Origin: Roseovarius lutimaris
Lineage (GTDB): Bacteria; Pseudomonadota; Alphaproteobacteria; Rhodobacterales; Rhodobacteraceae
Assembly: GCF_900115165.1 (NCBI RefSeq)
Contig: NZ_FOVP01000002.1
Location: forward strand, 1-64,000
Direction of reading: 5' to 3'
Length of the DNA stretch: 64,000 bases
Translations under genes and position numbers: made by a program
Shown: positions 49,269 to 58,471 of the stretch, piece after piece
How positions within the stretch are numbered: the stretch's first letter is position 1
How the letters are laid out: the number at the start of each line of letters is the position of its first letter
Notes under the pieces: model-generated
The model's database searches: none
What the model saw: only the letters and a program-made list of their open reading frames with translations
What the model was told of the DNA's origin: nothing

Positions 49269-50098
49269 CGCAACGCCGCAGCACGGGTCGCGCTATCGAC
49301 TGTCGGGCGAACGCCGAACCAACGCTCAAAGGCAGGCACGGCCTGATGCAACAACATCCCTAACCCATCAACTGTGACACATCCCGCCTTTTCCGCCTCG
49401 ATCAACAGCCGTGTTTTGAGCGGCGCATAGACGATATCGGTCACCAAGCTACCCCGGCGCAACCCATCCAGCGGCACCCGCAGCGGCGGCTTACCCAACA
49501 TGCCAAGCGATGTGGTGTTGACGACTGTAACGGCCTCTTCAAGCATATTGCCGGCCTGGACCCAATCGACCACCTGAATGCGCTTGCCAAATTCAGATTG
49601 AAGCGCCTCTGCGCGCACGCGGGTCCGGTTCGACAGTAAGATTTCGGGCACGCCAATATCCAGCAGCGAGGCGATGATTGCCCGCGCGGCACCCCCTGCA
49701 CCAAGAACGGCGGCCGGCCCTGATTTTGGATCCCAACCCGGAGCGTTCTGGCGCAGGTTCTGAATAAAGCCATAGCCATCGGTGTTATCGGCGTGAATCT
49801 TGCCATCCTTGCGAAAGATCAACGTATTCGCCGCCCCGATCAAGGTTGCGCGGTCTGTCACGAGATCGGCCAGCTCTAACGCCAGCTCTTTGTGAGGTAC
49901 GGTAATATTCACCCCGACAAAACCCATTTTCGGTAGGGTTTTTAGAACGTCGGCAAGATCATCCGCAGCAACGTCCATCGGAATATAATATCCTGGAATT
50001 CCAAGCGTCTTGAGCCAATGACCATGAAGCTGCGGCGATTTAGAATGGGCAATGGGCGAACCGATGACACCAGCCAGAGGTATTTTTGCATGGCTCAT
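49265..50098 (-). CDS. aroE: Shikimate dehydrogenase
   Basis: The 277-residue enzyme reduces 3-dehydroshikimate with NADPH in aromatic amino-acid synthesis. Seen are [16 protein letters not shown], the catalytic Lys in [13 protein letters not shown], the substrate Asp in [10 protein letters not shown], and the nucleotide motif [10 protein letters not shown] with the [12 protein letters not shown]-binding segment. It overlaps maf and coaE by four bases each. Confidence 0.95.
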
Positions 50099-50694
50099 TG
50101 TTCAAGATCTCCTCGTAGCGTCAGATAGGATAGCAGGTCCAGCAATGGCAGGCCAAGTACGGTGAAATAATCGCCTTCAACGCGGGAAAACAACCGCACA
50201 CCTTCTTCTTCAAGCTTATAGGCCCCGACGGAATGGCGAATACTTTCCCAGTTTCGCTCGACGTAGCCGTCCAGATAAGCATCGGAAAACGACCGCATTG
50301 TCATCCGAACAACGCCGACATGCCGCCAAATCGGTTTGCCGCCCTCACAGATCACCGCAGCCGAGAGAAGATCATGTCGTTTGCCACGCATATCTAAAAG
50401 CTGTGCGCGCGCCTCTTCTGGCGATTTGGGTTTCGACAAAAGCCTGCCTTGCAGATTGAGTACCTGATCACAGCCGATAGTCAAAGCGTCGGGGTGTTTC
50501 TGGCTTACCTTTGTTGCCTTCAATTCGGCCAATGCATCGGCAATATCGCGTGGCGAGGCATCTTCGGCCAACATCGAATCGCGAACCGTCTCTTCGTCTA
50601 CACGGGCCGGAACAACGTCAAAACCCAGCCCTGCATTTCGTAAAAGCGTTTGCCGGATGTCAGAGGTAGAGGCAAGAACAAGAGGCTGAGGCAT
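50095..50694 (-). CDS. Maf-family nucleoside triphosphate pyrophosphatase
   Basis: The 199-residue protein has the Maf fold: [39 protein letters not shown] and [37 protein letters not shown]. Maf proteins hydrolyse non-canonical or specific nucleoside triphosphates. It is the first gene of the minus-strand set maf-aroE-coaE-dnaQ. Its start codon (50692-50694) touches a perfect DnaA box at 50694-50702. Confidence 0.93.
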
Positions 50695-50702
50695 GTGGAT
50701 AA
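50694..50702 (-). promoter_or_regulatory. DnaA box, perfect match
   Basis: The minus strand reads TTATCCACA, the consensus DnaA box; it overlaps the first base of the maf start codon. Confidence 0.75.
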
Positions 50703-50983
50703 CCCATGGGAAATATCACTTGGGTTTTAAGAACAATTAACCGGTAAATCCATCCCAACTTAGGTTTCTATCGAATTGCGGCAATTTCACAGGCTTGTCA
50801 GTGTTTTCTACCGCTGTGGGAAAGGATAAATCCGTGTTGTGTATTTCATCCTCGAGGGCGAAGTTATACTCATTAGTTAAATCTGTTGTTAACCTTTAAG
50901 TTCTATGTCAAGGTATTGATATAAAACTAATATTTCATTTTTTGTTTTTTTGAAGTTCTAATGCCTCTGAATCATACACAGAG

Positions 50984-50992
50984 TTATCCACC
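50984..50992 (+). promoter_or_regulatory. DnaA box, one mismatch
   Basis: TTATCCACC differs from the consensus TTATCCACA only at the last base. It follows the AT-rich tract with many T runs that could be the unwinding element. Confidence 0.6.
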
Positions 50993-51018
50993 TGTTCTTA
51001 AGTCTGTTGAAAACACAA

Positions 51019-51027
51019 TAATCCACA
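51019..51027 (+). promoter_or_regulatory. DnaA box, one mismatch
   Basis: TAATCCACA differs from the consensus at the second base. It lies 35 bases (start to start) after the box at 50984. Confidence 0.55.
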
Positions 51028-51112
51028 GAAATTGGTCTCCCTAAATAAAACAACAATCTTTCTTATATATATTTTAATTATTAGAAAGATCCGGACCCGA
51101 GCGAGGATAGCC

Positions 51113-51562
51113 ATGTTTGATTTACTGAGTACGTTTTATCCTTGGATAAAAGCATTCCATATCATGTCCGTGATTTCATGGATGGCTGGGTTGTTTTATC
51201 TGCCCCGGCTCTTTGTCTATCATACGGAACAATCAACGCCGGGCGATAGCCGTGATGAGGTGTTCCAGACGATGGAGTACAAATTGCTGAGAGTGATCAT
51301 GAACCCCGCAATGGTGGCGACATGGGTATTTGGCCTTTTCCTGGTCATGACCCCCGGCATTGTCGATTGGTCGGCGGTCTGGCCTTACACCAAGATCGCA
51401 GGTGTCCTTGTGTTGACTTGGTTTCATCATTGGCTTGGCTGGCGCCGCAAGGATTTTGTGGCTGGCAAGAACACCCACACAGGCCGCCAGCATCGAATGA
51501 TGAACGAGGTTCCTACCCTTGCCATGGTGGTGATCGTTCTTTCGGTCGTGGTGCGTTTCTAA
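51113..51562 (+). CDS. hemJ: Protoporphyrinogen oxidase HemJ
   Basis: The ATG at 51113, with GAGG nine bases before it, gives 149 residues; the longer upstream frame would run into the AT-rich origin region and lacks family similarity. Four hydrophobic helices are seen. Conserved family features are WIKAFHIMSVISWMAGLFYLPRLFVYH, with the essential His at about residue 16, and YTKIAGVLVLTWFHHWLGWRRKDF. HemJ oxidises protoporphyrinogen IX in the inner membrane in bacteria lacking HemY or HemG. It is the first gene right of the putative origin and lies 119 bases before rho. Confidence 0.9.
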   Translation: MFDLLSTFYPWIKAFHIMSVISWMAGLFYLPRLFVYHTEQSTPGDSRDEVFQTMEYKLLRVIMNPAMVATWVFGLFLVMTPGIVDWSAVWPYTKIAGVLVLTWFHHWLGWRRKDFVAGKNTHTGRQHRMMNEVPTLAMVVIVLSVVVRF

Positions 51563-51681
51563 GGCTCGCATTGACGAAACCGGCTTTGATGCGTATGTAG
51601 CGCGCAAGCGCCCGTCCGGGTGGCCTGTTTTCCATCAATGACTGATACATGCGCCCATTGGGTGCGTCTGAGGGTTTTCCT

Positions 51682-52953
51682 ATGACTGACGAATGTCTGA
51701 ACCTTGCCGATCTCAAAGCAATGACTGCGAAAGATCTTCTTGCGATTGCCGAAGAACTTGAGATCGAGAATGCCTCGACCATGCGTAAGGGCGAGATGAT
51801 GTTCTCGATCCTGAAAGAACGGGCCGAGGATGGATGGACGGTTTTCGGGGATGGCGTGCTTGAGGTTCTTCAAGACGGGTTCGGGTTTCTACGCTCTACC
51901 GAGGCAAACTATCTTCCGGGTCCCGATGACATCTATGTTTCACCCGACATGATCCGGCAGTATTCGCTTCGCACCGGCGATACGATCGACGGTGAGATGA
52001 AACAGCCCGATGAGAACGAGCGCTATTTTGCTCTGACGTCGGTCACGCAGATTAACTATGAGGATCCCGAAAAGGCGCGCCACAAGATCGCTTTTGACAA
52101 CCTCACGCCGCTTTATCCGGATGAGCGGATGACCATGGAGGTCGAGGACCCGACGATCAAGGATCGCTCAGCGCGAGTGATAGACCTTGTCGCGCCGATC
52201 GGTAAAGGGCAGCGGTCGCTTATCGTGGCCCCGCCTCGGACGGGTAAAACCGTATTGCTTCAGAATATCGCGAACAGCATCGGAAAGAACCACCCCGAAT
52301 GCTATTTGATCGTTCTGTTGATTGATGAACGTCCCGAAGAGGTGACCGACATGCAACGCTCGGTCAAAGGCGAGGTTGTCAGTTCCACCTTTGATGAACC
52401 GGCCACACGCCACGTTGCAGTGTCCGAGATGGTGATTGAAAAGGCCAAGCGTCTTGTCGAGCATAAACGAGATGTTGTTATTCTTCTTGATTCGATCACA
52501 AGACTTGGTAGAGCGTACAACACTGTTGTTCCTTCTTCGGGCAAGGTTCTCACCGGCGGTGTGGATGCAAATGCCTTGCAGCGGCCCAAACGCTTCTTTG
52601 GTGCGGCCCGCAATATCGAAGAAGGTGGATCGCTCACCATCATCGCGACCGCCCTGATCGACACCGGAAGCCGGATGGATGAGGTGATTTTTGAAGAATT
52701 CAAAGGCACCGGCAATTCGGAAATCGTGCTTGATCGCAAGGTCGCGGATAAGCGGGTGTTCCCTGCCATCGACATCCTGAAATCCGGCACCCGCAAGGAG
52801 GATCTGTTGATCGACAAAATCGACCTTCAGAAAACCTTTGTTCTGCGCCGCATTCTCAACCCGATGGGCACAACCGATGCGGTCGAGTTCCTGCTGTCCA
52901 AGTTGAAACAGACCAAGTCGAACGCAGAATTCTTTGACTCGATGAATACCTGA
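51682..52953 (+). CDS. rho: Transcription termination factor Rho
   Basis: The 423-residue hexameric RNA helicase starts at the ATG at 51682 after GAGGG. The N-terminal part has the RNA-binding OSB fold ([15 protein letters not shown]), Walker A is [12 protein letters not shown], Walker B is [18 protein letters not shown], and the Q- and R-loops follow in [27 protein letters not shown] weak 6-bp hairpin (GCGCCC at 51651-51656 with GGGTGC at 51660-51665) lies in its leader; rho leaders are often self-regulated, but this is not shown here. Confidence 0.97.
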
Positions 52954-54271: not shown

Positions 54272-54287
54272 TGTTTCACGTGAAACA
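54272..54287. other. parS centromere site 1
   Basis: TGTTTCACGTGAAACA is a perfect 16-bp palindrome identical to the ParB-binding parS consensus. It overlaps the 5' end of mnmG, about 3 kb right of the putative origin and 2.5 kb left of parA. Confidence 0.93.
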
Positions 54288-56142: not shown

Positions 56143-56744
56143 GCGTGACACTGGATGTTTCACGTGAAACAAAGGCCAGGCTGGAAATCTATGCCGACCT
56201 GCTACGAAAATGGAATCCAAAGATAAATCTCGTGTCAAAGAACACAATCGATGACCTTTGGAACCGCCATTTCGTCGATTCTGCTCAGATATATTCTCTT
56301 GCGCCTCACCCTGTGAAGCACTGGGCTGATCTTGGATCAGGGGGCGGCTTTCCGGGGTTGGTCATCGCGATCATGGGCGCGGAACGGAAGTCACCCAAGA
56401 AAACCACGCTTGTCGAAAGTGATTCCCGCAAATGCGCCTTTCTGCGCACGGTCATTCGCGAAACTGGCGCCTTTGCAACGGTTGTGAATGAGCGGATCGA
56501 AGTATTGCCGGAATTGAGTGCAGACATAATCTCGGCCCGCGCGCTAGGGAGCCTGGACCTGCTTTTGTCCTTCGCTGAACGCCATTTGGCCAACAATGGC
56601 ACGGCTATTTTTCCAAAGGGCGCAAATTGGGAAAAAGAGCTGGCAGATGCGCGATCTAAGTGGAATTTCGATTACCAGCTTGCTAAAAGTAAAACCGAAA
56701 CCGGTCCCGTCATTATGAAGATAACAGGAGTTGCCCGTGTCTGA
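56139..56744 (+). CDS. rsmG: 16S rRNA G527 methyltransferase RsmG (GidB)
   Basis: The 201-residue SAM-dependent enzyme methylates N7 of G527 in 16S rRNA. Family features are [30 protein letters not shown] and the cofactor loop [17 protein letters not shown]. Codons 6-11 (DVSRET) are encoded by a second parS palindrome. The start overlaps the mnmG stop and its end overlaps the parA start, so mnmG-rsmG-parA-parB form one dense unit. Confidence 0.95.
56156..56171. other. parS centromere site 2
   Basis: A second perfect copy of TGTTTCACGTGAAACA lies in the first codons of rsmG, 1,884 bases from the copy at mnmG and about 580 bases upstream of parA. Confidence 0.93.
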
Positions 56745-57546
56745 TCCAACCCGACCACGCGGACCAAAGATCATCGCGATTGCCAATCAAAAGGGCGGCG
56801 TCGGCAAAACCACGACCACCATCAACCTTGGTGCGGCGCTTGCCGAGGCTGGCGCGCGAGTTTTGATTGTTGATCTTGATCCCCAGGGGAATGCGTCAAC
56901 CGGACTAGGAATAGAAGCAGATGCTCGGGAATACACAACATATGACTTTCTGCTTGATGAAATTAGTCTTGGCGAGGTGATTCAAGCGACGGCAGATGAA
57001 AACCTCATGATCATTCCGGCGACGGTTGATCTTTCGTCCGCCGATATCGAGCTTATCTCGAACGAAAAGCGAAGCTTTCTTTTGCATGATGCGCTGCGAC
57101 AGCATGCCATTGACGCCTATGCGCTTGATTATGTGCTGATTGATTGTCCGCCCTCACTTAACCTGCTGACGGTCAATGCCATGGTTGCGGCACATTCAGT
57201 TCTTGTCCCCTTGCAGAGTGAGTTTTTCGCACTTGAAGGTTTGTCGCAACTGATGCTGACAATCCGTGAGGTCCGCCAGACGGCTAATTCAAACCTTCGG
57301 ATCGAGGGGGTTGTTCTGACGATGTTTGATGCCCGGAACAATCTTTCTTCGCAAGTAGAGCTGGACGCGCGTGAAAACCTCGGCGATCTGGTGTTTCAAA
57401 CGCGCATTCCCCGGAACGTCCGGGTGAGTGAGGCGCCATCTTATGCAATCTCTGTGCTGAGCTATGATTCAAATTCAAAGGGTGCGCAAGCCTATCGCGA
57501 TCTTGCGCAGGAACTGATGCAAAACAACGCGCGCGCCGCCGCCTGA
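56737..57546 (+). CDS. parA: Chromosome partitioning ATPase ParA
   Basis: The GTG at 56737, six bases after AGGAG, gives 269 residues. The deviant Walker A is NQKGGVGKTTTTINL, with Walker A' in LIVDLDPQGNASTGLG and Walker B in VLIDCPPSLNLLT. ParA forms the gradient that moves ParB-parS complexes after replication. A TTG two codons upstream is less likely. It overlaps rsmG by eight bases and is 19 bases before parB. Confidence 0.96.
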   Translation: MSDPTRPRGPKIIAIANQKGGVGKTTTTINLGAALAEAGARVLIVDLDPQGNASTGLGIEADAREYTTYDFLLDEISLGEVIQATADENLMIIPATVDLSSADIELISNEKRSFLLHDALRQHAIDAYALDYVLIDCPPSLNLLTVNAMVAAHSVLVPLQSEFFALEGLSQLMLTIREVRQTANSNLRIEGVVLTMFDARNNLSSQVELDARENLGDLVFQTRIPRNVRVSEAPSYAISVLSYDSNSKGAQAYRDLAQELMQNNARAAA

Positions 57547-57565: not shown

Positions 57566-58471
57566 ATGGCCAGCAAGAAAACACAGCAGCGCGGCCTTGG
57601 GCGCGGCCTTTCGGCGCTTATGGCGGATGTCGGCGACGATGCTCGCGCCACTGCGGGCGATGGCGCAAAACACCCCGATCTTATGGTTCCTGTCGAAAAG
57701 GTTCAGCCCAACCCCGATCAGCCGCGCCGCAGTTTCGATCAGGAGCTCTTGCAGGATCTGGCCAATTCTATCGCGGAAAAAGGGGTAATTCAGCCGCTGA
57801 TCGTGCGGATGAACCCGCGTCGTGAGGGTGAGTATGAAATTGTCGCTGGTGAGCGTCGATGGCGTGCTGCTCAGATGGCCAAGCTTCATGAAATTCCGGT
57901 CCTTGTCCGCGAGTTCAATGACACAGAGGTGCTGGAAGTCGCGATTATCGAGAATATCCAGCGGGCCGATCTTAACCCGGTTGAAGAGGCGACCGGGTAT
58001 AACCAGCTTATGCACAAATTTGGGCATACCCAGGAAAAACTGGCCGAAGTTCTGGGAAAAAGCCGGAGTCATATCGCAAACTGCGTGCGCCTTTTAAACC
58101 TGCCGGAAGAGGTTTTGATCTTTCTGCGGGAAGGAAAGCTTTCGTCCGGGCATGCACGTGCGCTGATCACGGCAGAGGATCCCGCCAGTTTGGCGCGTCA
58201 GGTCATCAAAAAGAACCTGTCAGTGCGTGAGACCGAGAAATTGGCTAAAACCGCTGTAGGAAATATTTTCAATGAAAGTGGCACAACGGCCAAACCGCGA
58301 AGACCCGCAGCGAAGGATGCCGATACGATGGCGTTGGAGGGCGACCTTGCGGCCAACCTTGGTATGAAAGTGACGATTAACCACGCATCAGGACAGGAAA
58401 ACGGTCAGATCACCATTAGCTATGACACGTTGGATCAGTTGGATAAGCTATGTGGACTTTTGAGCAGTTAA
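57566..58471 (+). CDS. parB: Chromosome partitioning protein ParB
   Basis: The 301-residue protein has the ParA-interacting basic N-terminus (QQRGLGRGLSALMADV), the CTP-binding motifs NPDQPRRSFDQELL and GERRWRAAQMAKL, the ENIQRADLNPVEEA segment, a helix-turn-helix (LAEVLGKSRSHIANCVRLLNLP) and a C-terminal dimer domain. It would bind the two parS sites upstream in the same gene block. AAAAGGAAAA precedes the ATG. It is convergent with hemW with six bases between the stops. Confidence 0.96.
   Translation: MASKKTQQRGLGRGLSALMADVGDDARATAGDGAKHPDLMVPVEKVQPNPDQPRRSFDQELLQDLANSIAEKGVIQPLIVRMNPRREGEYEIVAGERRWRAAQMAKLHEIPVLVREFNDTEVLEVAIIENIQRADLNPVEEATGYNQLMHKFGHTQEKLAEVLGKSRSHIANCVRLLNLPEEVLIFLREGKLSSGHARALITAEDPASLARQVIKKNLSVRETEKLAKTAVGNIFNESGTTAKPRRPAAKDADTMALEGDLAANLGMKVTINHASGQENGQITISYDTLDQLDKLCGLLSS

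Follow-up and report, generated by a model that had tools for sequence, protein, structure and literature searches.

A predicted chromosomal replication origin between maf and hemJ in Roseovarius lutimaris

The non-coding gap between maf and hemJ is predicted to be the DnaA-dependent origin of the main chromosome, with a probability that we put at about 0.92. The window in which it lies, the whole stretch of 64,000 nucleotides that was analysed, corresponds to bases 1-64000 of a 292-kb contig in a draft genome of 4.28 Mb and 72 contigs. An earlier note on this DNA had proposed a chromosomal oriC at maf/hemJ, and computation supports the proposal through the clustering of DnaA boxes, duplex stability, conservation of the gap, synteny with the position of parS and, coarsely, the GC skew of relatives. 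Judged by comparison of loci, an oriC at this place is ordinary for the relatives. The prediction would place the origin in a Roseovarius-like draft genome; among the matches listed, the closest maf proteins are those of Roseovarius (R. gaetbuli and R. marisflavi, both 92% identical).

The gap covers 418 bp (50695-51112) and has a GC content of 35.3% versus 57.5% for the window, and all 15 of the lowest-GC 420-bp stretches listed for the window fall within it. The sole open reading frame of at least 100 aa found there is the hemJ frame, extended upstream to a TTG at 51032; between 50685 and 51125 the longest stop-free stretch is 52 codons. The interval is thus non-coding and AT-rich, as had been claimed. 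To the right, the genes follow in the order hemJ, rho, mnmE, mnmG, rsmG, parA and parB, and to the left maf, aroE, coaE and dnaQ. The rho-mnmE-mnmG-rsmG-parAB block is shared with Caulobacter. The genes and landmarks are as follows.

50095-50694, minus strand: maf (profile match)
50695-51112, no strand: predicted oriC, the non-coding gap between maf and hemJ (boxes, conservation)
50909-50921, minus strand: perfect IHF consensus, YAAN4TTGATW as read on the plus strand (motif search)
50913-50962, no strand: AT-rich, second least stable stretch of the window (duplex stability)
51041-51065, plus strand: trinucleotide element conserved among relatives (consensus CCTACAACATCATCTTTTC) but degenerate in the window (alignment)
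51041-51090, no strand: predicted DNA unwinding element; no other 50 bp of the 64-kb window are less stable (duplex stability)
51113-51562, plus strand: hemJ (profile match)
51649-52953, plus strand: rho (profile match)
54272-54287, no strand: parS, perfect palindrome, 3.2 kb from the gap
56156-56171, no strand: parS, perfect palindrome, 5.0 kb from the gap
56731-57546, plus strand: parA (profile match)
57566-58471, plus strand: parB (profile match)

DnaA boxes cluster in the gap beyond chance, as judged both by Markov resampling and by box density in relatives. The perfect box is the only one in 64 kb and shares one base with the start codon of maf. With the two one-mismatch boxes, the gap holds 3 of the window's 13 boxes at up to one mismatch, a count of at least three being reached in 0.15% of 2000 Markov resamples; at up to two mismatches it holds 8, a number reached by none of the 2000. 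The claim of one perfect and several near-perfect boxes was therefore borne out. Genome-wide, perfect boxes are not enriched (19, versus 17 for the reversed pattern). They are scattered, those on the same contig being at least 26 kb apart, and the gap box is the sole one on the window's contig.

Box positions were also compared across 72 aligned gaps, the window's own and those of 71 relatives, a sequence being counted as box-like at up to two mismatches and within one column. Box-like sequence recurs at the same aligned places, while the median alignment position scores 0 (72 gaps, from the best 80 of 157 relatives). Several of the conserved positions are degenerate in the window, which counts against reading its gap as oriC.

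50694-50702, minus strand: perfect DnaA box; box-like in 45/72 aligned gaps
50705-50713, minus strand: second DnaA-box position, degenerate in the window; 34/72 aligned gaps
50806-50814, plus strand: DnaA-box position of relatives, window not box-like; 27/72 aligned gaps
50815-50823, minus strand: weak DnaA box, 2 mismatches; 22/72 aligned gaps
50838-50846, minus strand: DnaA-box position, degenerate in the window; 27/72 aligned gaps
50874-50882, plus strand: DnaA-box position of relatives, window not box-like; 23/72 aligned gaps
50972-50980, plus strand: weak DnaA box, 2 mismatches; 24/72 aligned gaps
50984-50992, plus strand: one-mismatch DnaA box TTATCCACC (box search)
50993-51001, minus strand: DnaA-box position, degenerate in the window; 46/72 aligned gaps
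51005-51013, minus strand: weak DnaA box, 2 mismatches (box search)
51019-51027, plus strand: one-mismatch DnaA box TAATCCACA, next to the site predicted to open; 38/72 aligned gaps
51029-51037, plus strand: tandem DnaA-box position of relatives, window not box-like; 35/72 aligned gaps

The loci of relatives were fetched via the maf protein (best 80 of 157 relatives) and come mostly from Rhodobacteraceae or roseobacters, with a few metagenome bins labelled otherwise. Their arrangement was maf-gap-hemJ in 71, maf-gap-rho in 8, and one ended too early; L009, which has no upstream sequence, was dropped, leaving 79 loci with a gap. Within this set the 71 maf/hemJ gaps measure 366-479 bp, with a median of 418. 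Gap GC is below locus GC in all 79 loci, and in every locus except L020, L021 and L065 (76/79) the 300-bp stretch of lowest GC overlaps the gap. Boxes at up to one mismatch were present in the gap of 76/79 loci, at least three of them in 53/79, and a perfect box in 36/79. Their density was 7.16 per kb inside the gap versus 0.16 outside (241 versus 150 boxes), and in none of the 79 loci does a perfect box lie exclusively outside the gap. The eight maf-rho loci all have a low-GC gap with boxes at up to one mismatch, and there the predicted origin seems to abut rho. By tblastn, hemJ was not found between gap and rho in L013, L046, L049, L058, L059, L064, L065 and L067. The eight maf-rho gaps contain stop-free stretches of up to 151 codons.

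Duplex stability was computed along the window, and its two least stable stretches, 51041-51090 and 50913-50962, both fall in the gap, which thus has an AT-rich, readily melted element next to its boxes. The perfect IHF-consensus site had gone unmentioned in the earlier note. The consensus occurs in the window's orientation in 9/72 gaps (0.8 in shuffles) and in the opposite orientation in none (0.9 in shuffles). Because just 16/72 gaps retain even a loose core at the corresponding position, and the close relatives L007 and L008 do not, use of IHF at the predicted site is possible only. TTAACC is present twice, at 50737 and 50889, and had been taken for CtrA-like half-sites. This attribution was rejected: the motif occurs in 17/72 gaps versus 15.0 in shuffles and falls in no conserved alignment column. 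A motif search for the full CtrA site, TTAA-N7-TTAA, found none in the window's gap, and CtrA control at the window's origin is not supported. The full site is over-represented among relatives (8/72 aligned gaps versus 0.7 in shuffles), so that some of them may use CtrA at their origins. GANTC (CcrM) sites are rarer than in shuffles, 78 versus 124.7 over the window's gap and those of 71 relatives.

The proximity of parS and parAB, also claimed before, was confirmed. The two parS sites are the only matches to the parS pattern in the whole genome. They sit at the mnmE/mnmG and mnmG/rsmG borders, and exactly two, about 1.9 kb apart, were also found in the three relatives searched. In almost all genomes of five orders parAB lies near the origin, with exceptions (PMC8116508).

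GC skew was sampled in two relatives, as 20 stretches of 20 kb each. In Roseovarius sp. 217 (4.11-Mb contig), cumulative skew is lowest after the sample at 1.03-1.05 Mb; the one following it (1.234-1.254 Mb) contains the gap, at about 1.245 Mb, and has positive skew. Samples are positive from the gap to half a sequence away, where the cumulative maximum falls, and 3/9 samples on the far side are positive, contrary to the trend. For OX638333 (4.54 Mb), the lowest cumulative value comes after the sample at 1.36-1.38 Mb. This is 0.1-0.3 Mb ahead of the gap, which lies at 1.706 Mb; near ties extend to 2.07 Mb, and the sign is wrong in the three samples closest to the gap. When its skew is cumulated from the gap onward, it climbs to a maximum at 0.43 of the circle and declines thereafter. 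On the strain's own draft contig the skew is -0.011 left of the gap and +0.038 just right of it, and further right +0.043, +0.039, +0.024, -0.005, -0.020, +0.052, +0.053, -0.010 and -0.017. Altogether, skew agrees with the gap in the large without pinpointing it, owing to the resolution of about 0.2 Mb, the offset in OX638333 and the sign changes on the own contig.

The origin of Caulobacter lies between hemE and COG1806 (PMC1914354), and the earlier note regarded the maf/hemJ setting, with no hemE, as a variant of that context. The setting does differ from that of Caulobacter, and hemE is absent from it: in this genome it is found on contig C24, adjoining hemC. COG1806, the PPPase (PF03618), is gone too, since a profile search of the genome gave no match. 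The flank genes hemE and COG1806 are thus not those of the window's gap; they are a trait of the Caulobacter origin Cori and are not needed for an origin. As a description of relatives, "variant" did not hold, because maf/hemJ is their normal setting (71/79 loci), one of several arrangements in which the flank genes vary around the gap.

The same variation was seen in a class sample of 67 evenly drawn alphaproteobacterial genomes, which included the strain's own and one other of the same family. The divergent gap was flanked by PPPase and hemE in 37, maf and hemE in 6, maf and hemJ in 2 (the two family members) and PPPase and hemJ in 1; it was not seen in 21, by a test that would miss flank genes that are absent or on separate contigs. 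These 21 genomes count against the origin reading, whereas the persistence of the gap beside changing neighbours speaks for it. Weak or fragmentary second matches (three hemE, nine hemJ and two maf pieces of G009) were left out of the neighbour count, and split matches of G045 and G051 were merged. Of 46 gaps found, 44 were fetched, the others being that of G063 (1638 bp) and the window's own. Many class gaps flanked by hemE and PPPase contain boxes at up to one mismatch. The comparison shows a predicted origin that kept its gap among relatives while both Caulobacter flank genes left. hemE would be unsafe as an origin anchor, and maf/hemJ/rho together with parS are to be favoured.

Two other readings of the locus have to be weighed. 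The gap could be a mere divergent promoter of maf and hemJ, its AT-richness and boxes stemming from DnaA-regulated transcription and the origin lying elsewhere. Being placed between divergent genes, it must indeed carry both promoters, and the perfect box touches the maf start codon. However, a promoter does not readily account for a length that stays within 366-479 bp across the 71 loci drawn from the best 80 of 157 relatives, for a low-GC gap with boxes at up to one mismatch that persists beside rho in 8/8 loci, or for such boxes in many class gaps flanked by hemE/PPPase, and we regard this reading as very unlikely. Many bacteria have oriC by dnaA, and dnaA lies on the same contig, at about 165 kb and some 115 kb from the gap. 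An origin there or at another site is nevertheless scarcely credible: the perfect boxes, the only class surveyed genome-wide, are scattered, with the contig's single one in the gap, and parS occurs exclusively near the gap.

The origin reading suggests the following course of initiation. DnaA would load on the box cluster of the gap, and IHF may bend its middle at 50909-50921. The DNA would then open at 51041-51090, adjoining hemJ, where the co-oriented box at 51019 would point the DnaA filament onto single-stranded DNA. Forks would leave in both directions, and ParB on the nearby parS sites would segregate the new origins. Several of these features recall Cori of Caulobacter crescentus, which likewise combines DnaA boxes, an IHF site and AT-rich DNA in a gap of about 400 bp with a heme gene as neighbour (PMC1914354). 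It differs in its flanks, COG1806/hemE instead of maf/hemJ, and the window's gap lacks TTAA-N7-TTAA. Origins of 101 Rhodobacteraceae strains were predicted with Ori-Finder on the same criteria, namely DnaA boxes, a local GC minimum, a GC disparity minimum and proximity to parAB (PMC6699656); its main text mentions neither maf nor hem genes. The origin of Rhodobacter sphaeroides chromosome 1 was located by skew and its DnaA boxes checked by OriFinder, in an account (PMC6315104) that does not name maf. Our literature search found no paper joining a replication origin with hemE, maf and rho in Rhodobacterales.

The best-conserved parts of the aligned gaps are the box at the maf start and the element at 51041-51065, which directly precedes the AT-rich block. 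At the same place many class gaps contain runs such as CTACCACTACTACTACCT or CAACAACAACAACAACAA, in which the triplets vary but C recurs at every third base. We defined an array as at least four such triplets followed by 25 bp with at least 75% AT, and omitted G006 (1.36-kb gap), leaving 43 class gaps. Arrays were found in 19 of these, compared with a mean of 1.0 and at most 5 in shuffles, 2 on the reverse complement and 1 on the reversed sequence. Among near-relative gaps, 39/72 had one, compared with a mean of 1.7 and at most 5 in shuffles, 8 on the reverse complement and 0 on the reversed sequence. At an AT threshold of 60%, counted without shuffles, 33/43 class gaps had an array versus 4 on the reverse complement, and at 65% so did 5/8 maf-rho loci. 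The window's copy, CCTAAATAAAACAACAATCTTTC, is too degenerate to pass, and so are those of L007 and L008. Since arrays are found before hemE, hemJ and rho alike, the element seems tied to the origin rather than to any single gene.

Periodicity was also measured in the gaps. In 44 class gaps C-periodicity was 5.68 versus 4.33, with T-periodicity at background (4.25 versus 4.11). The 72 near-relative gaps gave, versus shuffles, 5.93 and 4.38 for T, 4.69 and 3.72 for C, and 4.57 and 4.13 for A, so that the excess of T exceeds that of C. Among 315 array triplets, whose C at position 1 is fixed by the array selection itself, the central base was T in 171, A in 81, G in 59 and C in 4; some runs take in spacer triplets, e.g. 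CCC CAG. In the titles and abstract openings of the papers listed on DnaA-trios in alphaproteobacteria or Caulobacter the element was not described, and a C-every-third-base array in alphaproteobacterial origins is possibly new.

The arrangement resembles the basal unwinding system (BUS) of B. subtilis, which consists of DnaA boxes and DnaA-trios. Both have a co-oriented box, a spacer, a three-base-periodic element whose guanine lies on the same strand, and AT-rich DNA (PMC8287927, PMC10721633). On the complementary strand the array reads 3'-G-N-N-5', which recalls the B. subtilis DnaA-trio 3'-GAT-5' (PMC8287927) with the central base loose. Unlike the BUS, many alphaproteobacterial arrays miss the central adenine, and our script found no box at up to one mismatch with trios within 16 bp in the window's gap. 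Downstream of the box at 51019, the first NAN run, read by hand, starts 28 bp away.

We searched for the general trio pattern, a DnaA box followed within 16 bp by at least three NAN triplets (PMC8287927), with a script of our own instead of the published program with its screening. With boxes at up to one mismatch it was found in 23 of the 72 near-relative gaps on the expected strand and 9 on the other, versus 0.9 in shuffles, and in 8 and 12 of the 43 class gaps, versus 0.8. With up to two mismatches it was found on the other strand in 26 near-relative gaps and 18 class gaps, and the class gaps had no preference for the expected strand. Within the window, the two matches to the published type under the laxer rule, at two-mismatch boxes at 50864 and 50972, are at chance level, being equalled by 29% of shuffles, and lie away from the box at 51019.

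The array may be an ordinary set of DnaA-trios of the published kind, with the absent central adenine a matter of loose drift. At up to two mismatches the pattern is present on the expected strand in 51/72 near-relative gaps versus 11.4 in shuffles, and in 15/43 class gaps versus 6.9, part of the excess being box enrichment because shuffling destroys boxes too; moreover, 31/58 arrays contain three or more NAN triplets in one phase or another, and ordinary trios may serve many of these origins. Against this, 27/58 arrays lack such a run of three whichever phase is read, three bases on each side included, and class gaps have T-periodic runs at background and C-periodic runs above it. We hold this reading to be plausible, if short of an even chance. 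The array could also belong to the leader or promoter of the right-hand gene, or stem from simple-repeat slippage, and be no origin element; its place upstream of that gene and its variable repeat number would fit. This is rather unlikely, as such arrays precede hemE and rho as well as hemJ and combine triplets that have just the C at every third base in common.

More speculative still is a variant trio code by which alphaproteobacterial origins would open, with mainly the first base fixed (3'-G-N-N-5') and the centre free, the adenine-reading Asn of DnaA lost (mostly to Tyr), the guanine-binding residues kept, and the element staying in position as neighbouring genes are exchanged. The published-type trios above shuffle level in relatives' gaps weaken it. 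B. subtilis DnaA touches the central adenine through Asn187 and binds the guanine with Arg202 and Glu228, and the B. subtilis origin is impaired when the central adenine is changed to guanine or thymine (PMC10721633). Aligned to the solved structure 8btg, the strain's own DnaA has Tyr, Lys and Glu at 187, 202 and 228. Among 66 class DnaA proteins, residue 187 is Tyr in 50, Phe in 5, His in 3 and Asn in 1; residue 202 is Lys or Arg in 65 and residue 228 Glu in 65. Outside the class, in the best 27 loci from 44 genomes of the phylum, residue 187 is Thr in 8, Asn in 8, Ala in 7, Gln in 4 and Tyr in none, and with Asn in just 8/27 the argument from co-variation is weakened. Within the class, residue 187 and array presence gave no useful contrast, non-aromatic cases being few. 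That the guanine pocket and the periodic G are both conserved is suggestive; the altered adenine contact is too unspecific to count as proof. If real, the variant code would account for origin opening throughout a large class in which the central adenine is not fixed.

Another DnaA-related sequence lies near the left end of the window. At 532-816, a 282-aa frame on the minus strand has a weak match to the AAA domain of DnaA (E 5e-6). We guess that it is an Hda-like relative of DnaA.
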